Origin: Trichothermofontia sichuanensis B231
Lineage (GTDB): Bacteria; Cyanobacteriota; Cyanobacteriia; B231
Assembly (NCBI RefSeq): GCF_026240635.1
Contig: NZ_CP110848.1
Coordinates: 1,614,501-1,678,500 of the forward strand
Direction: 5' to 3'
Length of the DNA stretch: 64,000 nt
The first letter of the stretch is position 1. Every line of letters begins with the position of its first letter. The notes beneath the pieces are model-generated. The model saw only the letters and a list, made by a program, of their open reading frames with translations, was not told where the DNA came from and did no database searches. Below, one piece after another: positions 14,329 to 48,624 of this stretch. The position numbers were made by a program, and so were the translations under genes.

Positions 14329-17300
14329 ATGTCCAGTATTTACGACAATATCGAGCAACCCATCCTGCCTGAGTTGCAACATTACCTGAAGCAAGCCTAC
14401 CGTGCTGATTTCTGTGTAGGCTATTTTAATTTGCGGGGATGGCGACAAATTGATGCTGATATTGAGCAGTTTGAGGGGGGTGAGGGGCAGGCTTGTCGAT
14501 TGTTGGTGGGGATGTACCGTTTGCCGAAGGAGGAATTACGGCAAGCGTTAGCGATCGGGGTTGAGCCAGAGCGGATGGATCAGGGGCAGGCGATTCGGTT
14601 GCAAACCTTGATGGCACAGGAGTTTCGCCAGCAACTAACCTATGGTGCGCCCAGTGCCGCTGATGAGGAGGGTTTGCAGCGGTTGCGATCGCAACTCCTG
14701 ACCGACAAACTCCAGGTCAAGCTATTTTTACGCCACCCCCTTCATGCCAAGCTGTATCTGATTTATCGCCGCGATCGCGCCACGCCCATCATCAGCTATG
14801 TAGGCAGCAGCAATTTGACCCTTTCTGGACTGAGATCTCAGGGTGAACTGAATGTGGAAGTGGTGGATCGGGATGACACCAATAAGCTGGAGCAGTGGTT
14901 TGAAGAGCGCTGGAACGATCGCTTTTGCTTGGATATTTCTGAACAGCTCGCAGAGATTATTGATGAAAGTTGGGCGGGGCGATCGCTCAAACCCTATTTT
15001 GTCTACCTAAAAATGGCGTATCACCTGTCCCAGGAAGCACGGGATGGGTTGAGCCAATATCGTGCCCCTGCCAGTTTTGGGTTGTTACCGTTTCAGGAAG
15101 CAGCGGTGCAAATTGCCGCCCATCATGTGAGTAAACGCAATGGGGTGATCATTGGCGATGTGGTGGGGCTGGGTAAAACCTTAGTGGGAACCGCGATCGC
15201 CCATCTCTGTGAAGAAGACTACGGTACCAGCACGCTGATTATCTGCCCCAAAAACCTGGAAAAAATGTGGCAGAGTTACATCGATCGCTATGGCTTGCGG
15301 GGCAAAGTGGTACCGATCAGCCAAGTGATTCAGGAATTGCCCAATATACCAGCGCGATTTCGGTTGGTGTTGATTGATGAAAGCCACAACCTGCGAAACA
15401 AAGAGGGTAAGCGGTATCAAGCCATCAAGGATTACATTGAGCAGAGCGGCAGTCGATGTATTTTGCTGACGGCAACGCCTTATAACAAAACCTATTTAGA
15501 CTTGTCGGCGCAGTTGCAATTATTTTTGCGCCCGGATGCGGATTTAGGGATTAAACCCGAAGCTTACATTCGCAGCCTGGGAGGGGAGATGCAGTTTCGG
15601 CGAAAGCATAGCACTAGCCCGGTGCGATCGCTTCTAGCCTTTGAGCACAGTCCAGAGCCGGAAGATTGGCAGCAGTTGATGAGTCGCTACATGGTGCGGC
15701 GAACCCGCAGTTTCATCAAAAATACTTATGCCAGACAGGATGGGGAACGGTACTATCTGGAATTTGCCGATGGGCGGCGATCCTATTTCCCGATCCGTCG
15801 TCCTCGGACAGTACAGTTCGCAATTGGCAATCCGCAGACCGATCCCTATGCTCGGTTGTATAGCGATCGCGTAGTGGATATCATCAACGCTCTTAATCTA
15901 CCGCGCTACGGATTGGGACTCTATCAAGACCCCAAACCCAAGCAGCCCCCCACCGCTGAAGAACAAAAACTATTAGACAATCTTTCCCATGCGGGGCAAC
16001 GGTTAATGGGGTTCTGTCGCACGAATTTGTTTAAGCGATTAGAGAGCAGTGGTGCTGCCTTTATCCAGTCGTTGGAGCGGCATATTCTGCGGAATTATGT
16101 ATATCTCTATGCGATCGCCCACGATCTTCCTCTGCCGATTGGCACCCAAGATGCCGCCTTACTGGATGAAGAGAGCAACGATGAGGATGAAGATTCACTC
16201 TTGAGCCAGGACTGGGAAGAAGACCCTCATCCCCTAACCCCTTCTCCCAAGGAGGGAGAAGGGGAACCAGATAATTCTCTTACCCCCCTCTCCCGTTCTG
16301 GGAGAGGGGCCGGGGGTGAGGGCAATTTCACTCAACGGGCAGCGGAGATCTACCGTTTATATCGAGAGCAATACCCGCGCCGGTTTCAGTGGATTCGTGC
16401 CAATCTGTTTCGTCCAGAGTTGCAGCAGCATCTTCAGCAAGATGCCACAGCGTTGATCGGTATCCTGCGACTGGCAGGTAGTTGGAACCCATCCTCAGAT
16501 GCCAAGTTAGGGGCGCTGGTGGCGTTATTACAGCAGCAACATCCTACGGATAAGGTGCTCATTTTCACTCAGTTTGCCGATACGGCTCGGTATCTGGCAA
16601 AGGCGCTGGAAGAGCAGGGTATTCAACAAGTGGGCTTAGCCACGGGACAATCGGCTGACCCGACGGCTTTGGCTTGGCGGTTTAGTCCAGTCAGTAATGA
16701 GAAAACGATCCCAGAGTCTGAACAGTTGCGGGTGTTGGTGGCAACGGATGTGTTGAGTGAGGGGCAAAACCTGCAAGATTGCGCCATCATTCTCAACTAC
16801 GATCTGCCTTGGGCAATTATCCGCCTAATTCAGCGGGCAGGCCGGGTAGACCGGATTGGTCAACAGGCGGACGAGATTCTCTGCTACTCATTTTTGCCGG
16901 CGGAGGGGGTGGAGCGCTTGATTAACCTGCGGGGACGGTTGCGCGATCGCCTCCAGCAAAATCAAGAGGTGGTGGGTACTGATGAAGCCTTTTTTGAGGA
17001 TGAGCAGGCGCGGGAGGTGCTGCTGAATCTCTACAACGAGCGATCGGGGATACTGGATGAAGCCGATGAGGGCGAGGTGGACTTAACTTCTGAGGCGTTG
17101 CAAATCTGGCAAAGTGCGATCGAGGCCAACCCAGCGCTAAAGAGTATGATCGAGAAATTACCCGATGTGGTGTATTCCACCAAGGAGCATGAACCCACGG
17201 GAACTGATCCAGAGGGCGTGTTGGTGTACCTGCGCACGGAGGGTGGTACGGATGCCTTGGCATGGGTAGATAAGGACGGTAACAGCGTCACCCAGTCGCA

Positions 17301-17754
17301 AATGCGAATTTTACGCATGGCACGGTGCAGCATTGATACCCCAACTTTGCCCCGTCATCCCCAACACCATGAACTCGTGACCCGTGGTGCAGAACTGATC
17401 GCTGAACAAACCAAGATGGTGGCGGGCACTCTGGGCAATAAACGCAGTGCAGCGGCACGGACTTACGATCGCCTGATGGCCTACACCCAGCACGTCCGCG
17501 AAACCACACCGCTACTAGCCATGGGCACGGAGTGGGAAGCCCTAGAACGGGCGATCGAGGAGATTAATCAGTATCCTTTAAAGCAGAATGCGATCGCCCG
17601 CCTCAACCAAGAACTCAAAGCAGGCATTAGCGATGAACAGTTGGCAAAACTGGTCACATTCTTGCGAGAGCACGATGCGCTGTGTGTGATTAACCCAGAG
17701 GAACGGCGAGATGGGGCGCAAATTATTTGTTCAATGGGAATTTTTTCCAAGTAA
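14329..17754 (+). CDS. PLD-domain SNF2-type helicase, candidate restriction/defence protein
   Basis: 1141 residues. The N-terminal part carries one phospholipase-D-like half site: 'HPLHAKLYLI' (H and K of the HxK motif, about residue 139) followed by 'YVGSSNLTLSGL' (about residues 160-171). Then comes a superfamily 2 helicase: Walker A 'GDVVGLGKT' (about 276-284), box II 'LIDESHNL' (about 348-355), motif III 'LLTATPYN', and the C-terminal RecA domain with 'VLIFTQFAD', 'VLVATDVLSEGQNLQ' and motif VI 'QRAGRVDRIGQ' (about 835-845). Residues 633-666 are repeat-derived low-complexity sequence inserted in frame between the lobes. SNF2 helicases with a PLD domain are found in DISARM-like and other restriction-type systems, where they translocate on DNA and may cut it. 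It is the first gene of an operon that ends with a large adenine methylase. Confidence 0.85.
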   Translation: MSSIYDNIEQPILPELQHYLKQAYRADFCVGYFNLRGWRQIDADIEQFEGGEGQACRLLVGMYRLPKEELRQALAIGVEPERMDQGQAIRLQTLMAQEFRQQLTYGAPSAADEEGLQRLRSQLLTDKLQVKLFLRHPLHAKLYLIYRRDRATPIISYVGSSNLTLSGLRSQGELNVEVVDRDDTNKLEQWFEERWNDRFCLDISEQLAEIIDESWAGRSLKPYFVYLKMAYHLSQEARDGLSQYRAPASFGLLPFQEAAVQIAAHHVSKRNGVIIGDVVGLGKTLVGTAIAHLCEEDYGTSTLIICPKNLEKMWQSYIDRYGLRGKVVPISQVIQELPNIPARFRLVLIDESHNLRNKEGKRYQAIKDYIEQSGSRCILLTATPYNKTYLDLSAQLQLFLRPDADLGIKPEAYIRSLGGEMQFRRKHSTSPVRSLLAFEHSPEPEDWQQLMSRYMVRRTRSFIKNTYARQDGERYYLEFADGRRSYFPIRRPRTVQFAIGNPQTDPYARLYSDRVVDIINALNLPRYGLGLYQDPKPKQPPTAEEQKLLDNLSHAGQRLMGFCRTNLFKRLESSGAAFIQSLERHILRNYVYLYAIAHDLPLPIGTQDAALLDEESNDEDEDSLLSQDWEEDPHPLTPSPKEGEGEPDNSLTPLSRSGRGAGGEGNFTQRAAEIYRLYREQYPRRFQWIRANLFRPELQQHLQQDATALIGILRLAGSWNPSSDAKLGALVALLQQQHPTDKVLIFTQFADTARYLAKALEEQGIQQVGLATGQSADPTALAWRFSPVSNEKTIPESEQLRVLVATDVLSEGQNLQDCAIILNYDLPWAIIRLIQRAGRVDRIGQQADEILCYSFLPAEGVERLINLRGRLRDRLQQNQEVVGTDEAFFEDEQAREVLLNLYNERSGILDEADEGEVDLTSEALQIWQSAIEANPALKSMIEKLPDVVYSTKEHEPTGTDPEGVLVYLRTEGGTDALAWVDKDGNSVTQSQMRILRMARCSIDTPTLPRHPQHHELVTRGAELIAEQTKMVAGTLGNKRSAAARTYDRLMAYTQHVRETTPLLAMGTEWEALERAIEEINQYPLKQNAIARLNQELKAGISDEQLAKLVTFLREHDALCVINPEERRDGAQIICSMGIFSK
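16223..16327. repeat. Repeat core inserted in frame inside the helicase gene
   Basis: The stretch has the C-rich self-complementary core of the dispersed repeats (cccctaaccccttctcccaaggagggagaagggg, then cccccctctcccgttctgggagaggggccgggggtgaggg). It is translated without a stop as LTPSPKEGEGEP...LTPLSRSGRGAGGEG, a sequence characteristic of repeat-derived inserts in cyanobacterial proteins. Confidence 0.75.
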
Positions 17755-17798
17755 AAAGGCAAAAGGTAAAAGGTAAAAGGTAAGAGGAGCAAAGCAGG

Positions 17799-18428
17799 AT
17801 GGCCACGCGGGTTAAGAAAAAGAATTTTTCGAGTTTTACCTATGCGGAAGCATTCAAGTATTTAGGGATTCAGGAGATCATGCCTTGGAAGTTTTCTGTG
17901 GAACCGATCGCCCCTAGCGAATTCTTTGAAGAAAACCTCAGACAGATTTCTGAAGTATTTGATTTACAAAGTGGTGAAGAGTCTAAAAAACTCCTGATTG
18001 ATGCCATTTGTCAGGAGTCGCTACGACAGTTTAAGCACTTGAAAATTTGGAAGGCAGCCCCACTTTCTGACGAACAAACAACTGGCTATGTGGACTATTT
18101 GCTGGCCAAGAGACGTGCGTATCTCGAAGCACCATTATTGTGCATTATCGAAGCAAAGAAAGATGATTTTGAGCAGGGATTAGCCCAATGCCTACCTGCC
18201 ATGAAGGCTTGTCAATATAACAATCAATTACTCGGTCAAAATTTGGACATTTATGGCATTGTGACTAATGGAGAGGGCTGGCAGTTCTACAAGCTAACTC
18301 TGGATGGATTAGTGTATGGTTCTGGGCTATATGCGATCGGAAATCTGCCTCAAGTTCTAGGAATTTTGAACTTTGTTTTTGGTCAGTGCGAACAGAATTT
18401 GTTGGCAGCCTTGGGAGGTGAGTCATGA
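17799..18428 (+). CDS. PD-(D/E)XK nuclease-like protein of the helicase-methylase operon
   Basis: 209 residues. The order D99 (GYVDYLL), then E118 and K120 (IIEAKKDD), with a preceding glutamate-rich helix, fits the PD-(D/E)XK nuclease fold; the following 'GLAQCLPAMKACQYNNQ' helix and 'IYGIVTNGEGWQFYKL' strands resemble type I restriction subunit N-terminal regions. It is 44 bp after the helicase gene, in a spacer of aaaaggt units, and its stop overlaps the next ATG (ATGA). A paralogue with the same D99 and E120/K122 pattern is at 48972-49580. Nuclease activity is inferred from motif only. Confidence 0.7.
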   Translation: MATRVKKKNFSSFTYAEAFKYLGIQEIMPWKFSVEPIAPSEFFEENLRQISEVFDLQSGEESKKLLIDAICQESLRQFKHLKIWKAAPLSDEQTTGYVDYLLAKRRAYLEAPLLCIIEAKKDDFEQGLAQCLPAMKACQYNNQLLGQNLDIYGIVTNGEGWQFYKLTLDGLVYGSGLYAIGNLPQVLGILNFVFGQCEQNLLAALGGES

Positions 18429-18886
18429 ATTCATTGTATGAAACTGATTTTTATGCTTGGACGGTAGAGCAGTCAAAGTTTCTTAAGGAGGGGGATTTTA
18501 AGCATCTGGATATTCCTAATCTCGTGGAGGAAATTGAGTCGTTGGGGAAGCAACAGCGTCAGGAACTCAGAAACCGACTAGGCGTTTTGATCGGGCACCT
18601 ATTGAAGTGGGATTACCAGCCCGAAAAGCGTACCAAAAGCTGGCGAGTGACGATCCAAATCCAGAGACGAGAAATCAATGACTTATTGGAGGAAAATCCT
18701 AGTCTCAAGCCATACTTATCAGCAGCGATCGCCAAGGTCTATCGGGCAGGCGTAGATTTAGTACGGCTGGAAACCCCGTTAGATAATGAAGACCTACCCC
18801 AAAACTGTCCTTATTCTGTGCAACAATTGCTCGACCTCAATTTTCCTGTAGATTTGAATCAAGGTCATCAGGAGTCACAGCAATGA
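18425..18886 (+). CDS. DUF29 family protein, first of a tandem pair
   Basis: 153 residues with the classic DUF29 start 'LYETDFYAWTVEQSKFL', then 'LDIPNLVEEIESLGKQ', 'LGVLIGHLLKWDYQPEKR' and 'NPSLKPYL'. DUF29 proteins are small helical proteins abundant in cyanobacteria, often in multiple copies; no biochemical function is known to me. Both ends overlap neighbours by 4 bp (ATGA at 18425 and at 18883), implying translational coupling. Confidence 0.85.
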   Translation: MNSLYETDFYAWTVEQSKFLKEGDFKHLDIPNLVEEIESLGKQQRQELRNRLGVLIGHLLKWDYQPEKRTKSWRVTIQIQRREINDLLEENPSLKPYLSAAIAKVYRAGVDLVRLETPLDNEDLPQNCPYSVQQLLDLNFPVDLNQGHQESQQ

Positions 18887-19332
18887 ACCCTAATATCTAT
18901 GAAACGGATTTCTATGCATGGACGGTGGCGCAATCAAAGTTGCTCAAAGAGGGGGATTTTAAGCATTTAGATATTCCCAATTTAGTGGAGGAAATTGAGT
19001 CATTGGGAAAGCAGGAATGCCGAGAGATAGAGAGTTGTTTAGGAATTTTAATTGGGCATTTACTAAAATGGGACTACCAACCTGACAAACGAACCAAAAG
19101 TTGGAGGGCAACGATTCGTGAGCAACGACGGGCAGCACAAAAACTCATCGCCCAGAACCCCAGTCTCAAGCCCTATCTCACAGAGGCGATCGCCGATGCC
19201 TATGAATCGGGCAAGGATTTAGTGGTGAAGGAAACCCCTTTAGATTATGGAGATTTGCCTGAGAATTGTCCCTATACATCCGAGCAACTGGTTGACCCTA
19301 ACTTTCCCAACGATTTGAATCTAGCTAGGTGA
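18883..19332 (+). CDS. DUF29 family protein, second of a tandem pair
   Basis: 149 residues, clearly a duplicate of the preceding protein: 'YETDFYAWTVAQSKLLKEG', 'DIPNLVEEIESLGKQ', 'LIGHLLKWDYQPDKRTKSW' and a matching C-terminal 'DLPENCPY'. Differences are spread along the length, so the duplication is not recent. Its stop is followed by a 100-bp spacer with a duplicated 26-bp unit before the antitoxin gene. Confidence 0.85.
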   Translation: MNPNIYETDFYAWTVAQSKLLKEGDFKHLDIPNLVEEIESLGKQECREIESCLGILIGHLLKWDYQPDKRTKSWRATIREQRRAAQKLIAQNPSLKPYLTEAIADAYESGKDLVVKETPLDYGDLPENCPYTSEQLVDPNFPNDLNLAR

Positions 19333-19370
19333 GTGAACATTCCGAGAGGCTAATATGAGCAACTAAACCT

Positions 19371-19422
19371 TAAATAAATTCTAGAAATAAAGGAAGTAAA
19401 TAAATTCTAGAAATAAAGGAAG
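19371..19422. repeat. Perfect 26-bp direct duplication before the antitoxin gene
   Basis: TAAATAAATTCTAGAAATAAAGGAAG occurs twice in tandem (19371-19396 and 19397-19422) with no mismatch. Each unit carries an AAAGGAAG that can serve as a ribosome site, and the second lies just before the ATG at 19433. Confidence 0.85.
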
Positions 19423-19432
19423 TGGCGTTTTT

Positions 19433-19648
19433 ATGTCAATCACTGAAGCCCAACTCTTAGAAATAATTCGGCAGCTACCCCAACCCGCTTTAGATGAAGT
19501 AAAGGTATTTTTAGATTTTCTAACCTGGCGTTATCAAGAAAATTTGCCCCAGCTACGGGGAGCAGCCATCGTTGCAGCCATGCGGGGTAAAGCCACAGCC
19601 GAAATGACAACCGATGAAATCCTAAACCTGACGCGGGGCAATGAATGA
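19433..19648 (+). CDS. DUF2281-like antitoxin (VapB role)
   Basis: 71 residues: 'LLEIIRQLPQPALDEVKVFL' followed by 'DFLTWRYQENLPQ', which is the usual DUF2281 N-terminal helix pair, and a C-terminal tail 'MTTDEILNLTRGNE' like those that mask PIN toxins. It overlaps the PIN gene by 4 bp (ATGA). The start is supported by AAGGAAG in the duplicated spacer. Confidence 0.75.
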   Translation: MSITEAQLLEIIRQLPQPALDEVKVFLDFLTWRYQENLPQLRGAAIVAAMRGKATAEMTTDEILNLTRGNE

Positions 19649-20052
19649 GTAGTGTTTTGGTGGATAGTAATGTCATTCTTGATGTTTTGACCGAGGATCG
19701 GACTTGGTTTGAGTGGTCTGCGGGGCAATTGGTGGACTGTGCTGAACAGGGAAAGTTGCTAATCAATCCGATTATTTATGCAGAAGTATCGATCGGCTTT
19801 ACACAACGTGCAGAGCTAGACGCAGCGCTGACCCAGTCTTTTTTTCAGCGCGAACCTTTACCTTACGACGCAGCATTTCTTGCAGGAAAGGCTTTTTTAG
19901 CCTATCGGCAAAGGGGTGGGGAACGTCGCTCTCCCTTGCCAGACTTTTATATTGGTGCCCATGCAATGATTGCTGGACATACTCTGTTAACCAGAGATGC
20001 AACTCGCTACCGTACCTACTTTCCCGAAATAACATTGATTGCTCCTTCATGA
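19645..20052 (+). CDS. PIN-domain toxin (VapC-like ribonuclease)
   Basis: 135 residues with the four acidic PIN positions visible: 'VLVDSNVILDVL' (D8), 'IIYAEVSI' (glutamate), 'LPDFYIGAHAMIAG' and 'LLTRDATRYRTYFPEI'. PIN toxins are metal-dependent endoribonucleases neutralised by the adjacent antitoxin. The gene overlaps both the upstream antitoxin and the downstream methylase by 4 bp, so a toxin-antitoxin pair is embedded in the operon. Confidence 0.85.
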   Translation: MSSVLVDSNVILDVLTEDRTWFEWSAGQLVDCAEQGKLLINPIIYAEVSIGFTQRAELDAALTQSFFQREPLPYDAAFLAGKAFLAYRQRGGERRSPLPDFYIGAHAMIAGHTLLTRDATRYRTYFPEITLIAPS

Positions 20053-23000
20053 GTGTTGCCATGCCACTGAATCGCCAACGCGCCCAAAAGTATCTCCAGA
20101 CGTTTGATTTTGAATCCCTGTTTATTGAGGAACTGGGTTGGGATACGGTCGATCGCGTCGCCCTGCCCTTCGAGATTAATGGTCACTCTTTCGAGGTGGT
20201 TGCCATTGCCCAAAAGCGCGGCTTCATTGTCTACCAGTGCATCACGCCAGAGATGCCAGCCCGCCCCATTCGGGTAAAGCTCGATCGCCAATTGACGGAC
20301 TACAGCAAATCGCACCTATTGGTGTTTGGGGATGCGGGTAAGACGCAGCAGGAGTGGTTGTGGCTGAAGCCGGAAGTAAAAAGTAAAAGGGCAAAGGGTA
20401 AAGGTGAGGGCAAGGTTACTTCAACGAGGGCGGTGCGATCGCATTCGTACCAGGTGGGTCAGAATCCAGAGCCGCTGTTGCAAAAGCTGGAGGCATTGAT
20501 TGTTGATATCCAAGAGGAAGTGAGTTTAACCCATGTGGATGTGGTGCAGAAGGTGAAGCAGGGGTTTGATGTTGAACGGGTTACGAAGCAGTTTTTCCAG
20601 GATTTTGAAGGGTTACATCAGCGGTTTTGTTTGGAAATTGAGGGGATTGATTCGGAGAGCGATCGCCGGTGGTATGCTTCGGTTTTGCTCAACCGGTTAA
20701 TGTTTGTCTATTTCCTACAGCGTCGCTATTTCCTGGATAACGGGGATGCCTCGTATTTACAAAATAAACTCAAAGCCTGTCAACAGGAAGGTCGAAACTT
20801 TTATCAGTTTCTCCAGGATCTATTCTTTGTTGGTTTTGCTGAGCCGGAATATCTGCGTGATCCAGTGATTCAGCAGCGTATAGGCAAAATTTGTTATCTC
20901 AACGGAGGCTTATTCCTCCGCCACCCGATCGAGCAAAAGTATCCGCAAATTCAGATTAGCGATCGCGCTTTTGGCGAAGTTTTTAACCTATTTTCTCAAT
21001 ATTCTTGGCACTTGGACGATCGCCCGGACAAAGACCCCATGGAGATCAACCCTGATGTACTGGGGTACATATTTGAGAAGTATATCAACCAAAAAGAATT
21101 TGGCGCTTACTACACTCGCCCAGAAATTACCGAATACCTGTGCGATCGCACGATCAACAAACTGATTCTGGATCGCCTTACCCCCCTTGAGAGGGAGGGG
21201 GAGGGACTCCTACCCCTTCTCGAAACCCTAGACATTACTCAGTGCGATCGCCTACTGAGCGAGATTTTACCAAACCTAACCCTGCTCGACCCCGCCTGCG
21301 GTTCGGGAGCGTTCTTGGTCGCGGCAATGAAGACATTGATTCAAATTTATCAAAGAGTTTTTAACCGGGTCAAATCATTACCAGAAAGCTCTGCGTCAGA
21401 AAACATCCAAAAATGGCTCAAAGAAGCCGCTAAACATTCCTCTCCGGAGTACTACATCAAAAAACGCATCATCACCGATAACCTGTATGGCGTAGACATC
21501 ATGGAAGAAGCCACCGAAATTGCCAAATTGCGGCTATTTTTGGCATTGGTCTCCTCCGCCAAGCGGGTTGAAGATTTGGAACCTCTGCCCAATATTGATT
21601 TTAATATCATGGCGGGCAATTCGTTGATTGGCTTGATTCGAGTCGATGCCGAAGGATTTGATCGCCTGTCTACCCCCCCCTCGCAAAAAGGGAGAGGGGC
21701 TGGGAGTGAGGCGATATTTCAGGGCAATTTTCTCCCAACCCTTGCTGCTTCTGCTTATCAGCAAATCCTAGAAGACAAAAATCGAACGATTGACCTCTAT
21801 AAAAAACACGCCTTCCAGAACAACAATGAGGAACTGCCTCAAGAAACGCGGTTATTACAACTGCGAGACCACATTGATAAACTCAATCGGGAATCCCAAA
21901 GCAAGTTAAATCAGTTGCTGTTGGATGAATTTAGCACGAAGTTGGGAATTAGGTACGAGCAAGCTCAACTAACGGGAAAACCCCAAAAACGACCGCTGAC
22001 CCTTGCTGATATTGATATTCTGGAACCCTTTCACTGGGGCTATCACTTCGATACTGTGTTTGCCCGGGGTGGCTTTGATGCCATTATTACCAATCCCCCG
22101 TGGGAAGTTTTCCAAACCGACGAGAAAGAATTTTTCCAAAAATATAACAGCTTGATTCGCAAGAAAAAACTTGATATAAAATCTTGGGAAAAACAGCGTG
22201 ATCAACTTTTAAAAGATGAAGAAATAGCTAAGGCATGGTTGAGCTACTGTAGCCAGTTTCCTCATGTTAGTCAGTATTTCAAGAAAGCAGACCAGTATAC
22301 CAATCAGCGTTCAGAAGTAGATGGTAGGAGCGTCGCCAGGAAAATAAACTTATATTCCTTGTTTGTAGAACAGTGCTATAACCTTCTGAGAGAAGGCGGA
22401 GAATGTGGAATTGTTATTCCCAGCGGAATTTACACAGACTTAGGTACAAAGCAACTGCGAGAAATGCTCTTTTCCCAGACCCAAATCACGGGTTTATTCT
22501 GCTTTGAAAATCGTAAGACTATTTTTGAAGGAGTGGATAGTCGCTTTAAGTTTGTCATCCTTTCTTTTGCAAAAGGCGGGCAAACCCAAGCTTTCCCGGT
22601 GCGCTTTATGCGTCATGAGGTGGCAGAACTTGGCGAGTTTCCAGCACCTGACGATATTTACTTAGATGTACCCTTCATCCGCAAGCTCTCGCCGGACTCG
22701 CTCTCCATCATGGAGTTTAAGGAACCCATCGATATTGCCATTGCCCAAAAGATGCTGCAATTTCCCTTGTTGGGTGAAGCAATTGAGGGAACATGGAATC
22801 TGAAGCTACGTCAAGAGTTTAATATGACAAGTGACAGTTATCTATTCAAAACGGAGCCAGCACCGGGGCGCTTGCCGCTCTACGAAGGCAAGATGATTCA
22901 TCAGTTTACCCATCGGTTTGCCCCACCCCGCTACTGGATTGATGAAAAAGAAGGACGCAAAGCTTTGTTGGGTAAAAATGTAGGCGATCGCGGTCAAAAG

Positions 23001-23543
23001 CTAGACTATCAAGGTTATCGCTTAGGCTTTAGAGATGTTGCAAGAAATACTGATGAACGAACAATGATTGCAACGGTCATATCTCCTAAATTGTTTGCAG
23101 GCAATACCTTAATAACATCTTTGGGATTAAATGATTTTCAAGAACTACTTTTAACCACAGCAATACTAAACAGTTTTGTTGTTGATTTCTCATTACGACA
23201 GAAAGTGACAGCTCATTGCAATATGTTTTATGTTTATTCAACCCCTATTCCCCGTTTGCAAAAGGGCGACCAATGGTTTGCTGAAATTGTCGATCGCGCA
23301 GCCAAGCTGATTTGCACCACGCCCGAATTTGATGATTTAGCTAAGGAAGTTGGCTTAGGCTCCCACACAAACGGCATCACCAACGAAATTGAGCGGGCAA
23401 AACTCCGTGCCGAACTTGATGGCATCATTGCCCACCTCTATGGCTTAACCGAAGCCGAGTTTGAGCATATTCTCAGCACCTTTCCCCTTGTTCCCGATAC
23501 CACCAAACAAGCGGCTCTTAAGGCCTATCGTGAGTTAAGTTAA
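20049..23543 (+). CDS. Eco57I-type N6-adenine DNA methylase, candidate restriction-modification subunit
   Basis: 1164 residues. The methylase core shows motif I 'LLDPACGSGAFLVAAM' (about residues 411-426) and motif IV 'ITNPPWEVF' (about 679-687), the arrangement of gamma-type N6-adenine methylases of the Eco57I/PglX/Type ISP class. A helical N-terminal domain precedes 'EKYINQKEFGAYYTRPEI', and the last 400 residues should hold the target-recognition domain. No clear ExK nuclease site is visible in its N terminus, unlike type IIG enzymes. Three low-complexity inserts derive from dispersed repeats (about residues 113-125, 378-388 and 541-554). It overlaps the PIN gene by 4 bp. It presumably modifies the site recognised by the whole operon, protecting self DNA. 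Confidence 0.85.
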   Translation: MSVAMPLNRQRAQKYLQTFDFESLFIEELGWDTVDRVALPFEINGHSFEVVAIAQKRGFIVYQCITPEMPARPIRVKLDRQLTDYSKSHLLVFGDAGKTQQEWLWLKPEVKSKRAKGKGEGKVTSTRAVRSHSYQVGQNPEPLLQKLEALIVDIQEEVSLTHVDVVQKVKQGFDVERVTKQFFQDFEGLHQRFCLEIEGIDSESDRRWYASVLLNRLMFVYFLQRRYFLDNGDASYLQNKLKACQQEGRNFYQFLQDLFFVGFAEPEYLRDPVIQQRIGKICYLNGGLFLRHPIEQKYPQIQISDRAFGEVFNLFSQYSWHLDDRPDKDPMEINPDVLGYIFEKYINQKEFGAYYTRPEITEYLCDRTINKLILDRLTPLEREGEGLLPLLETLDITQCDRLLSEILPNLTLLDPACGSGAFLVAAMKTLIQIYQRVFNRVKSLPESSASENIQKWLKEAAKHSSPEYYIKKRIITDNLYGVDIMEEATEIAKLRLFLALVSSAKRVEDLEPLPNIDFNIMAGNSLIGLIRVDAEGFDRLSTPPSQKGRGAGSEAIFQGNFLPTLAASAYQQILEDKNRTIDLYKKHAFQNNNEELPQETRLLQLRDHIDKLNRESQSKLNQLLLDEFSTKLGIRYEQAQLTGKPQKRPLTLADIDILEPFHWGYHFDTVFARGGFDAIITNPPWEVFQTDEKEFFQKYNSLIRKKKLDIKSWEKQRDQLLKDEEIAKAWLSYCSQFPHVSQYFKKADQYTNQRSEVDGRSVARKINLYSLFVEQCYNLLREGGECGIVIPSGIYTDLGTKQLREMLFSQTQITGLFCFENRKTIFEGVDSRFKFVILSFAKGGQTQAFPVRFMRHEVAELGEFPAPDDIYLDVPFIRKLSPDSLSIMEFKEPIDIAIAQKMLQFPLLGEAIEGTWNLKLRQEFNMTSDSYLFKTEPAPGRLPLYEGKMIHQFTHRFAPPRYWIDEKEGRKALLGKNVGDRGQKLDYQGYRLGFRDVARNTDERTMIATVISPKLFAGNTLITSLGLNDFQELLLTTAILNSFVVDFSLRQKVTAHCNMFYVYSTPIPRLQKGDQWFAEIVDRAAKLICTTPEFDDLAKEVGLGSHTNGITNEIERAKLRAELDGIIAHLYGLTEAEFEHILSTFPLVPDTTKQAALKAYRELS
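21180..21218. repeat. Repeat-derived insert in the methylase gene (first)
   Basis: ccccccttgagagggagggggagggactcctacccc is translated as LTPLEREGEGLLPLL. The C-rich/G-rich symmetry and the LTPL-EGEG product match the inserts seen in the helicase gene. Confidence 0.5.
21671..21711. repeat. Repeat-derived insert in the methylase gene (second)
   Basis: tacccccccctcgcaaaaagggagaggggctgggagtgagg is the dispersed repeat core, read in frame as TPPSQKGRGAGSEA. It lies between the methylase motif I region and motif IV. Confidence 0.65.
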
Positions 23544-44362: not shown

Positions 44363-45205
44363 ATGGAGTTACTGACCTTTGCCATTCTGGCCCTCCTGTT
44401 GTTATCCGCCTACACCTATACATCGATCAAGATTATTAACCAAGGGAATCGTGCCCTCGTTGAACGGCTAGGGCGCTACCACCGTACCCTGGGGCCTGGG
44501 TTGAACTTTATTGTGCCCCTACTTGACAAGATTGTTTACCAGGATACCGATCGCGAGCAAGTCTTAGATGTTAAACCGCAACGGGCGATCACGAAGGATA
44601 ATGTCTCCCTCACTGCTGACGCCGTTGTCTACTGGCGTATTTTTGATCTAGAGCAATCTTTCTACGCGATTGACGACATCCGAGATGCCATTAACACCCT
44701 AGTTTTGACGATTCTCCGTTCAGAAATTGCCAACCTAGAGTTTGAAGAAACCCTTTCCTCCCGCCAAGAAATTAACCGCCAGCTTTTACAGCAACTGGAT
44801 GAGGCCACGGAAAACTGGGGTGTGAAGGTGATGCGGGTAGAGGTGAAGACGATCGAACCTGCCCCGGATGTGCTGGAGTCAATGCAGAAACAGCAGGCTG
44901 CGGAAATTCAAAAACGAGCCTCTATTACTGCAACTGAAGCGACAGTGGAATCCATCCAGCGGATCTCAAAGGCCATCCGGGCTGATCCCCAGGCTCAAGA
45001 GGTCCTGCGCTATCTCATTGCCGACAAGTACATTGAGTCCAGCCACAAACTGGGGGATAGCCCTAATGCCAAAATCTTGTTTATGGACCCGAAAGCAATG
45101 AATGAGGCGATGGCAGCCCTATTTTGGCCACGGGGAATACGCTCAGATGAAACCAGCCCCCCCTCATCTCCCCCACCACCCAATGGCTCCCCGCCTCAGT
45201 CATAA
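44363..45205 (+). CDS. SPFH/Band-7 (slipin/paraslipin) membrane protein
   Basis: 280 residues. One N-terminal membrane segment is followed by the SPFH core ('IKIINQGNRALVERLGRYHR', 'QVLDVKPQRAITKDNVSLTA', 'RSEIANLEFEETL') and a coiled helix with 'VEVKTIEPAPDVLESMQKQ'. Family members form ring-like scaffolds in membranes; the C-terminal tail here is proline/serine rich. Confidence 0.88.
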   Translation: MELLTFAILALLLLSAYTYTSIKIINQGNRALVERLGRYHRTLGPGLNFIVPLLDKIVYQDTDREQVLDVKPQRAITKDNVSLTADAVVYWRIFDLEQSFYAIDDIRDAINTLVLTILRSEIANLEFEETLSSRQEINRQLLQQLDEATENWGVKVMRVEVKTIEPAPDVLESMQKQQAAEIQKRASITATEATVESIQRISKAIRADPQAQEVLRYLIADKYIESSHKLGDSPNAKILFMDPKAMNEAMAALFWPRGIRSDETSPPSSPPPPNGSPPQS

Positions 45206-45419: not shown

Positions 45420-47882
45420 TCAGGCAACAACGGTTAGCCCCATCTGCTGCAACTGAATTTGATAGAGGGCAACCAGGGGAACCGGTCCCTCCCACACGAT
45501 CGCCTTCCCCTCCTGGTGAATGCGCTGGGCTAACTGGCGTGCCCGATCGCGATCAACCCCTGGTAGGTAGTGGCTTAAGACGGCAATCACCTGCTCAAAG
45601 CTATGGATGTCATCGTTGAGAACGGTTAAAACATCCGTGGGATAGGCAGCTTGTCCACTTGCTTTGGAATCTTGAGCACGACCGCACTCGGCAGCTTGCC
45701 CGCTTGCCGGCAGAGGCATTACCTGATCTGTGCCCAACTCACTGGTATATCCCTGAACCGCCGTTGGCTTATAGGTCAAGCTTTGGGCTAAGGCAGGGGC
45801 GCGATCAAGCAGAAAGGCATAATCAGCCAGCGTGCCTGGGTAATCCCCCCGCTGGTAGCGTAGCCAACTGCGGGCTGCATAGGCTTCGAGCCAATCCGGT
45901 TGCAGGGCAATGACGCGATCGTAGTCCTGTGCCGCCGCGTCGAGATCACCCAGGGTGGCATACAGAGCTGCCCGTTGGGCATAGGCATCCGCATCATTGG
46001 GGTTGAGGTGAATACGCTCGCTGTATTCCTCAGCCAGCATCGCCGCAAAGTGGGTTTGCAGCAGGCGATGGATAAAGGCATAGTGTCCACCCACTTGGTG
46101 TAAACATAACCGTTCTGCCCCCGCCTCTAGCAACTGGCGCACATTCCACGGCAGTTCCCCCTGGCGATAGAGCAACCAGCGGAGCCACCCATGTTTGAGG
46201 CTGGCTAGCCCACCCTTGTGCAAACCCAAGAGACTACCCGTCAGGAGGCCCCCTGTCAGCAGCCCCTGCCAAGGATCCCCCCCCACTAACCAGGCAAAAC
46301 CTGCCCCACTCATGCCCCCCAGCACTGCCCCCACACCAGCGAAGACCGCCGCATTCTGGAGCGATCGCCAGATGCCATGATTGGGATCAGACACGACCCC
46401 CTCCCGTGGACGACTCCCTTGGGGCCGGACCAGCCCCCCTAGCCAGCCCCCCATCACTCCCCCACTGATCAGCCCCAATAGCCCACCCCCAAGTGTGCCG
46501 GTGGTGAACCCCGCACTCAGCCCCGCTAACCCGCCAATGACCACCCCTCGACTTGCTGCCTCCCACGACCACCACACCTGGGTCACGGGTTCAATGCGAT
46601 CCGTCACCCGTGGTTGCCAACCGATCGCGGCCCCCAATCCTCCCCCTAGGGCAATGCCCCCTGGTCCCAATAGCCAGACTCCCAAACTGGCCCCCACCAG
46701 CCCACACCCCAGCACAATGCCAGTAACATAGGTTCGATAGGGACGGTTAGGCGATGGGGAAGCACGGAATAGCCCGTCGGTCCCCCCTTCCAAATCCCGC
46801 AACCATTGGGGTTGCAGGTTATCCAAGGCAAAGAGGGTTTGGGATTGCTGGGTTAACCGATAGGCTAAGCGGGCCAACCAATACCGCAACTGAGACGGTG
46901 GCAGCGGTGAAGTCGGGTCGGGTCGCCCCAGCAGGTGGTCAACGTAGGTGTTTAATAGGTGGGTGCGATAGGCCGCGGCAGTGGGGACAGGGGTAACGAG
47001 ACCGGACACTGCCTCAGTGCCGGCCTGGATGAGCAGCCTCAGCATCAGGGGAGTTGTCAGAAGTTCCTGGAGGGCGGGGTTGCTGTCAACCCATGCCTTG
47101 ACCGCCGCGAGCTCAGGACCTAGCGTAGTTAAACAATTCTGCACCTGTTCCCAGGACAGGGGTTGGAGGGCGATCGCACTCTGGACGTGCAGGCGATGCT
47201 CCCCCAAGTCAAGATAGGCTGGCAGGCGGCTACAGACCACCATGCTCAGTAACGAGTGGCGTTGCTTAAAGTCATTTAAGGCCGCGATGCAGCGCTGTCG
47301 GTGGGGCCAAGGCACTTCATCTAGCCCATCCAGCAAGAGCACCAGGTTTTGCCCATCCAGCCAACTCAGGGTGATTGTTGGCGACAATTGATAGCGAACC
47401 CGTAGCTCCTCCAGCAGCCAATCCATCCAGGTCTGTGGCGATGCTCCTGCGGCGACGCTGCGCGAACGCCAACTGGCCAGGGACAGGATGATGGGTAGGG
47501 GATACTCCGGATCAAGGGTGGCGCGATCCAGTAAATCGCGACCCAGTTCCAGCAATGCCGTTGTTTTACCAGCACCGGCTGCCCCCAGGATCAACAGGCT
47601 ACTGCCTAAGCCCAGACGTTGCCAATAGTCCATCAGCGAAGTGCCCATCGGCAGGGGACGTTCGGCGCGGGCGATCGCGTCCCAAGTGCGCTCTCGGACA
47701 GATCCCACGAGATCCCAACGCTCAACTAAGGCAATCTCTAACCGGGCCTGATCCTGCTGGCTAGTGGCCAGAACCCCCTCGATCCAGTAGTGACGCACCC
47801 GTTGCAGGAGCACTTGGCGGTGCTGCCAGTGGCTGCGACTGGCTGATAAAGATAGGGAGTCAGGCGAGGAGTTAGGCACCAT
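45420..47882 (-). CDS. NACHT NTPase with Gly-rich membrane region, TPR and C-terminal ClpS-like domain
   Basis: 820 residues. The NACHT module has Walker A 'GAAGAGKT' (100-107) and Walker B 'VLLLDGLDEV' (181-190). From about 385 to 560 there are several hydrophobic, glycine-rich segments ('GGGLGAAIGW', 'GVMGGWLGGL'), suggestive of glycine-zipper membrane helices. 'YAFIHRLLQTHFAA' ends the NACHT-associated part, then TPR repeats (about 630-700). Residues 747-820 resemble the Clp adaptor ClpS: N756-D757-D758 correspond to the NDD loop, and H789 with GKA (792-794) to the His and GKA of the N-degron pocket. ClpS passes N-degron proteins to ClpP. A fused membrane NTPase with a ClpS-like end is unusual. 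No partner gene is obvious nearby. Confidence 0.8.
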   Translation of the reverse strand: MVPNSSPDSLSLSASRSHWQHRQVLLQRVRHYWIEGVLATSQQDQARLEIALVERWDLVGSVRERTWDAIARAERPLPMGTSLMDYWQRLGLGSSLLILGAAGAGKTTALLELGRDLLDRATLDPEYPLPIILSLASWRSRSVAAGASPQTWMDWLLEELRVRYQLSPTITLSWLDGQNLVLLLDGLDEVPWPHRQRCIAALNDFKQRHSLLSMVVCSRLPAYLDLGEHRLHVQSAIALQPLSWEQVQNCLTTLGPELAAVKAWVDSNPALQELLTTPLMLRLLIQAGTEAVSGLVTPVPTAAAYRTHLLNTYVDHLLGRPDPTSPLPPSQLRYWLARLAYRLTQQSQTLFALDNLQPQWLRDLEGGTDGLFRASPSPNRPYRTYVTGIVLGCGLVGASLGVWLLGPGGIALGGGLGAAIGWQPRVTDRIEPVTQVWWSWEAASRGVVIGGLAGLSAGFTTGTLGGGLLGLISGGVMGGWLGGLVRPQGSRPREGVVSDPNHGIWRSLQNAAVFAGVGAVLGGMSGAGFAWLVGGDPWQGLLTGGLLTGSLLGLHKGGLASLKHGWLRWLLYRQGELPWNVRQLLEAGAERLCLHQVGGHYAFIHRLLQTHFAAMLAEEYSERIHLNPNDADAYAQRAALYATLGDLDAAAQDYDRVIALQPDWLEAYAARSWLRYQRGDYPGTLADYAFLLDRAPALAQSLTYKPTAVQGYTSELGTDQVMPLPASGQAAECGRAQDSKASGQAAYPTDVLTVLNDDIHSFEQVIAVLSHYLPGVDRDRARQLAQRIHQEGKAIVWEGPVPLVALYQIQLQQMGLTVVA

Positions 47883-48048: not shown

Positions 48049-48624
48049 CTAGGGCGTGATCGGATAGTGGTACTCTACCCGTCGCATTGTACGCTGCCAG
48101 CCGTCGCGATCGAAATTAACCTGGGTAATATCGACGCCATCAAAATTAGCATCCTGCCATTGGGCACCATAGAAATTCACCCCCCACAACTGAGCAGTTC
48201 GGAAGTCAGCCCCTGCCAGATTCGCTCCCCGAAAGTTGGCCGAGGTGATCTTAGCCCCCCGGAAGTCAGTTCCCATCAGGCGAGCACGCACCAGATCCGT
48301 GCCCCAAAGGGTGGTATTGCGGAGGTTGGCTTGCCGGAGATCAACGCCATAGAGTTCAGCCGCACTGAGGTCGGCCCCTTCTAGGTTAGCCTGTCGCAGA
48401 TCCGCACCCCACAGGTCAGCCTGTTGGAGGTTCGCTCCTTGTAGGTTAGCTCCCCGCAAATCCTGGCCATAAAGGTTTACCCCGCTCAGGTTGCAACCGG
48501 GACAATGCCCTGTCCTGAGCAGGCGATTCACATCGGTTTGTTCTGCTGCCTGGGTGGGAGAAAGGGTTGTCACGAGCAGCCCTAGGGCGATCGCTATGCC
48601 GCCTATTACTTCACTTCTCACCAT
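48049..48624 (-). CDS. Secreted pentapeptide-repeat protein
   Basis: 191 residues. A signal peptide (about residues 1-26, 'ALGLLVTTLSPTQAAEQ') is followed by A(N/D)LxX-type repeats from about residue 44 to 175: 'GANLQGANLQQADLWGADLR' and 'ANFRGANLAGADF'. These form a right-handed beta-helix, here probably in the periplasm or thylakoid lumen. No specific role is apparent. Confidence 0.85.
   Translation of the reverse strand: MVRSEVIGGIAIALGLLVTTLSPTQAAEQTDVNRLLRTGHCPGCNLSGVNLYGQDLRGANLQGANLQQADLWGADLRQANLEGADLSAAELYGVDLRQANLRNTTLWGTDLVRARLMGTDFRGAKITSANFRGANLAGADFRTAQLWGVNFYGAQWQDANFDGVDITQVNFDRDGWQRTMRRVEYHYPITP

Follow-up and report, generated by a model that had tools for sequence, protein, structure and literature searches.

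Does a ClpS domain at the end of a cyanobacterial NACHT NTPase serve the Clp protease, or does it sense N-degrons on behalf of the NTPase itself? In bacteria, the known readers of N-degrons are protease adaptors, whereas those of eukaryotes belong to ubiquitin ligases, and in the usual layout of STAND proteins the C-terminal repeats sense while the NACHT module switches. The gene that raises this question lies in Trichothermofontia sichuanensis B231, in a window of 64,000 nucleotides (the whole stretch analysed; contig NZ_CP110848.1, positions 1,614,501 to 1,678,500, within which the positions below are counted). The genome, of 4.44 Mb, belongs to a cyanobacterium that is the sole member of its family among the genomes compared, and carries three stand-alone ClpS genes besides the fusion, as well as a second NACHT-membrane protein without ClpS. 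The third of the stand-alone ClpS-like proteins (L003 1438–1776, C1 at about 714684; 113 amino acids, Pfam ClpS 63.6 bits) has NDN instead of NDD and is very divergent from ClpS1 and ClpS2.

The fusion gene starts with an ATG at 47882, stops at 45420 and is intact over 820 codons. Its features are as follows.

45420–47882, minus strand: NACHT-membrane-TPR-ClpS fusion gene, 820 amino acids, one stop-free open frame with full-length relatives elsewhere
47259–47597, minus strand: NACHT NTPase core, residues 96–208, Walker A GAAGAGKT and Walker B LLLDGLDEV, Pfam NACHT
46164–46745, minus strand: glycine-rich hydrophobic helices, about residues 380–573, a probable membrane region by hydropathy and a low-confidence model
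45780–46022, minus strand: TPR repeats, about residues 621–701, Pfam TPR_1 and TPR_9, modelled as helical hairpins
45636–45779, minus strand: low-complexity linker, about residues 702–749, pLDDT below 50 over 706–760, unconserved in the alignment
45423–45635, minus strand: ClpS domain, residues 750–820, by Pfam, tail model with Foldseek, and alignment and tree with ClpS2; its pocket residues are N756, D757, D758, F762, V765 and H789

A preliminary description, made by reading the letters, had placed NACHT motifs at the N terminus, glycine-rich hydrophobic helices in the middle of the protein, TPRs before the tail, and NDD (756–758), H789 and GKA (792–794) within a ClpS-like tail domain; each of these elements was recovered where it had been placed. 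Pfam NACHT (PF05729) matches residues 96–208 at 27.6 bits, barely above its cut-off of 26.7, and the Walker A and B motifs together with the fold assign the protein to the NACHT STAND NTPases. The full-length model has low confidence (pLDDT 58.9), and its best structural matches, which concern the NACHT part, are NOD2, NLRC4 and NLRP3; in the fusion protein, this module would work as a nucleotide-dependent oligomeric switch. The glycine-rich region has hydropathy peaks at residues 386–404, 467–485 and 511–529, with similar peaks in relatives, and contains five long helices in the low-confidence full-length model; to judge by its hydropathy, it is probably membrane-inserted. The Pfam TPR match covers residues 624–674, with the hairpins modelled at pLDDT of about 80.

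The C-terminal domain is a genuine ClpS. Pfam ClpS (PF02617) matches residues 753–813 with an E-value of 2.3e-10 and 40.5 bits, well over the cut-off of 23, and the NCBIfam ClpS profile PRK13019.1-3 matches residues 736–818 with an E-value of 3.8e-20, under its equivalog cut-off, as expected for a diverged domain within a longer protein. An AlphaFold2 model of residues 729–820, built with nine relatives, has a mean pLDDT of 83.6 and exceeds 90 across most of the core. When this model was compared by Foldseek with the PDB, all of ranks 1–38 were ClpS chains, the best being the Arabidopsis AtClpS1–peptide complex (7d34; rmsd 0.8 Å, target TM 0.88), and L7/L12 appeared first at rank 39 (E 0.086), followed at rank 47 by a weak match to yeast Ubr1 (7mex). 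The comparison with L7/L12-type folds that the preliminary description had proposed thus came out in favour of ClpS, and an L7/L12 fold is ruled out by the unbroken ClpS ranks. A chance likeness of a short tail is ruled out by the Pfam score, the structure and the conservation. A sequencing or frame artefact is likewise excluded, since independent assemblies show the same architecture and the fusion is kept in other genomes.

The fusion is rare: of the roughly 800 genomes searched, about ten carry it. A single-protein scan of named genomes had come back empty and had hinted at a one-genome oddity, a view overturned by alignment-based searches: one full-length relative turned up among 390 genomes of the class, and further fusions came to light when 391 genomes of a single order were searched with an alignment. 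The carriers in a named-genome scan are Oscillatoria sp. PCC 10802, Oscillatoria princeps RMCB-10, Kastovskya adunca, Prochloron didemni P4, two Prochloraceae MAGs, Hyella patelloides, two Hormoscilla MAGs and an Oscillatoriaceae MAG, a list that is incomplete because that scan used one nine-residue pattern. The order NACHT, membrane region, TPR, ClpS is identical in the full-length relatives. The tail, for which a search of other cyanobacteria had been suggested, recurs in about ten other genomes, and the earlier judgement that such a fusion is unusual holds as to rarity, but the arrangement is conserved and probably arose a single time. Signs of degradation are seen in some copies: the gene of Oscillatoriaceae M7585 is split into several frames (L118 1834–4242), and Hormoscilla GUM202, like one of the two copies of Hormoscilla GM7CHS1pb, has its ClpS part out of frame; these copies come from MAGs, so assembly errors may be responsible. 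At the M7585 locus, the downstream genes and one upstream gene resemble those beside the Oscillatoria fusion gene. In the open-licence literature searched, which is no proof of novelty, neither a NACHT–ClpS fusion nor a C-terminal TPR-ClpS extension on a NACHT/STAND NTPase was found, and the only ClpS-fold insertions reported were those in vWA conflict proteins (PMC7159879).

The fused ClpS domain derives from cyanobacterial ClpS2. A tree of ClpS sequences unites the 11 fused tails in a single clade (support 98/99) beside 37 stand-alone cyanobacterial ClpS2 proteins, and this monophyly implies that the fusion probably arose once; the simplest account is one event whose product was then inherited, lost or transferred. 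The NACHT half gives a less even picture. A quick tree of 108 NACHT rows unites the nine other fusions with support 100, but the window protein, on a long branch and with an odd composition, falls outside their clade, whereas in a reduced tree it joins them with support 88; given this branch and the conflict between the trees, the NACHT half alone leaves the grouping unsettled. Purifying selection acts on the ClpS part in the one close pair, Oscillatoria, where omega is 0.17 for that part and 0.21 overall, and the domain has therefore been maintained there. The 24-codon linker before ClpS in these genes (L106 7021–9429, L107 6762–9170) differs by 8 non-synonymous changes and 1 synonymous change, over few sites.

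The NACHT-membrane core is itself widespread. Relatives over residues 15–618 occur in 128 of 390 genomes at E 1e-25, so that the core is common in cyanobacteria, with a few relatives in Chloroflexota, Gemmatimonadota and Nitrosomonas. These cyanobacterial proteins share the NACHT module and the glycine-rich helices with the fusion at 30–39% identity, but end at about residue 615–620, without TPR-ClpS, and at the N terminus many have a Ser/Thr kinase, CHAT, AAA_35 or kinase-plus-cyclase arrangement, whereas the fusions have no effector-type domain at that end. The occurrence of kinase, CHAT and cyclase domains on the same core marks it as a modular switch, and the ClpS version is one of a set that pairs it with different partners. 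In its motifs, its likeness to NOD2, NLRC4 and NLRP3 and its modular domain swapping, the fusion also resembles bacterial NACHT and NLR-like STAND NTPases; among the PADLOC defence families, none matched it better than E 0.015, that is, none above noise. Two other known systems embed a ClpS-type domain in a larger protein. Eukaryotic UBR1 does so in reading N-degrons, but is a ubiquitin ligase without NACHT. In bacteroidete vWA beta-propeller conflict systems, inserted L12/ClpS domains are described as multimerising (Kaur et al. 2020, PMC7159879), and these resemble the fusion in having a ClpS-fold domain within an NTP-dependent protein, but differ in their host protein, their occurrence in Bacteroidetes, the multimerising role and the lack of NACHT.

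By sequence, the fused tail is closest to the stand-alone ClpS2 proteins (about 105–120 amino acids), with which it shares, in the E. coli numbering used from here on (N34 to H85), N34, D35, H66, a Phe at 40, W74 and G76. Caulobacter ClpS grips the alpha-amino group of a peptide via the equivalents of N34, D36 and H66 (PMC12493166). All 11 fusions have N34, D35, F40 and V43, and 10/11 have H66; position 36 carries D in 5 fusions, N in 5 and S in 1. All pocket residues are retained in the window protein (N756, D757, D758 and H789), as in an N-recognin. The fused ClpS may thus bind N-degrons, and the specificity of Synechococcus elongatus ClpS2 for N-terminal L, F, Y, V and I (PMC7966870) indicates the ligands to be expected. 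Since 6/11 fusions carry N or S instead of D36, and the one from Kastovskya has H66D as well, some fusions may not bind N-degrons; N at position 36 is also seen in L003, the stand-alone ClpS-like protein.

The surface through which ClpS meets its unfoldase tells a different story. ClpA contacts E79, E82 and K84 of E. coli ClpS (PMC12493166). E79 and E82 are invariant in the 37 ClpS2 proteins, but only 6/11 fusions retain the former and 3/11 the latter, and the window protein has P802, A805 and Y807 at the three positions and so lacks all three contact residues; P77 and H85 are eroded as well, and Q80 is replaced by L in 11/11. Tyr at position 84 is already present in ClpS2 and is kept in 11/11 fusions. 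The erosion of E79 and E82 is suggestive at most, as two ClpS2-invariant sites picked at random reach this deviation with P 0.15, and we dropped it as proof against Clp delivery for this reason. Delivery also needs ClpA to pull on a free N-terminal extension (PMC9663308), which stand-alone ClpS2 has and the fused domain, C-terminal on a protein of some 800 residues behind TPRs and linker, does not. With E79 and E82 lost and no such extension, canonical Clp delivery looks impaired. The preliminary description had offered two readings of the protein, of which the recruitment of Clp substrates fits less well on these grounds, while the sensing of N-degrons fits the conserved pocket; the ClpS fusion beneath both is strongly supported.

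Because the sensor of STAND proteins usually lies C-terminally, we read the TPR-ClpS end as an N-degron sensor. That the protein is a modular NLR-like STAND switch, of a build shared with the immune receptors of animals and plants, with its ClpS2-derived domain sensing N-degrons rather than serving as a Clp adaptor, seems to us tentatively the best account, at a little under an even chance. The ClpS pocket would bind proteins on which a bulky hydrophobic N terminus has just been exposed, that is, N-degrons made by proteases; binding would lift the inhibition of NACHT by TPR and ClpS, NACHT would then oligomerise with ATP, and the clustered membrane helices would act on or in the membrane, the glycine-rich helices being either anchor or output. 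The fuller picture, of an NLR-like membrane receptor of cyanobacteria that senses N-degrons directly via a captured ClpS2 domain and turns stress or phage proteolysis into STAND oligomerisation and a membrane response, is possible but more doubtful, and a link to defence, as earlier mooted, is at present conjecture.

The same conserved pocket, together with Y84, kept as in ClpS2, could instead belong to a membrane-tethered Clp adaptor, docking on ClpC and delivering N-degron substrates near the membrane with NACHT and ATP gating its availability; ClpS2 does interact with ClpC (PMC7966870). We think this unlikely in view of the missing N-terminal extension (PMC9663308) and of E79 and E82, both lost in the window protein, although their erosion is not significant. 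Slightly less probable still is that ClpS brings the NACHT protein, or competitors, to ClpC as a docking tag that controls receptor turnover or inhibits ClpC: in characterised systems ClpS inhibits the use of other ClpA and ClpC substrates (PMC9663308, PMC6274998), and a disordered linker precedes the domain, but a docking tag would have no need of the N-degron pocket, which is largely conserved, and the docking residues are among the variable ones. A comparably low standing is given to a scaffold, in which the ClpS fold serves protein–protein contacts or multimerisation and binds no N-degrons, in line with a proposal made for the L12/ClpS insertions of vWA systems (PMC7159879). The Kastovskya fusion, with NDS and H66D, and several others with NDN would suit a scaffold; N34, D35, F40 and V43, invariant, and H66, in 10/11, do not, given that the window tail is only 35–45% identical overall to the other fused tails, and the best structural match is a peptide-bound AtClpS1.

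No conserved gene neighbour that would indicate a pathway was found across the fusion loci. The immediate neighbours in the window, an SPFH/Band 7 protein and a pentapeptide-repeat protein (44363–45202, 48052–48624), do not recur beside other fusion genes. Tandem AIM24-family genes and an M48 peptidase flank the fusion in Kastovskya and Hormoscilla (L105 4664–10300, L108 2656–5915, L112 1475–6341); as obligatory partners they were rejected, since other loci lack both and the window's genome has no AIM24. Elsewhere in the window, positions 14329–23543 hold a possible defence cluster of a SNF2 helicase with a PLD-type domain (PADLOC HKD+Snf2), a PD-DExK-like protein and a type IIG restriction-methyltransferase.

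If the sensor reading is true, an N-degron reader inside an NLR-like switch would link protein quality control with NLR-type signalling. It would also put ideas on the ligands sensed by bacterial NACHT proteins to a clear test, with the pocket residues as ready-made point mutants.
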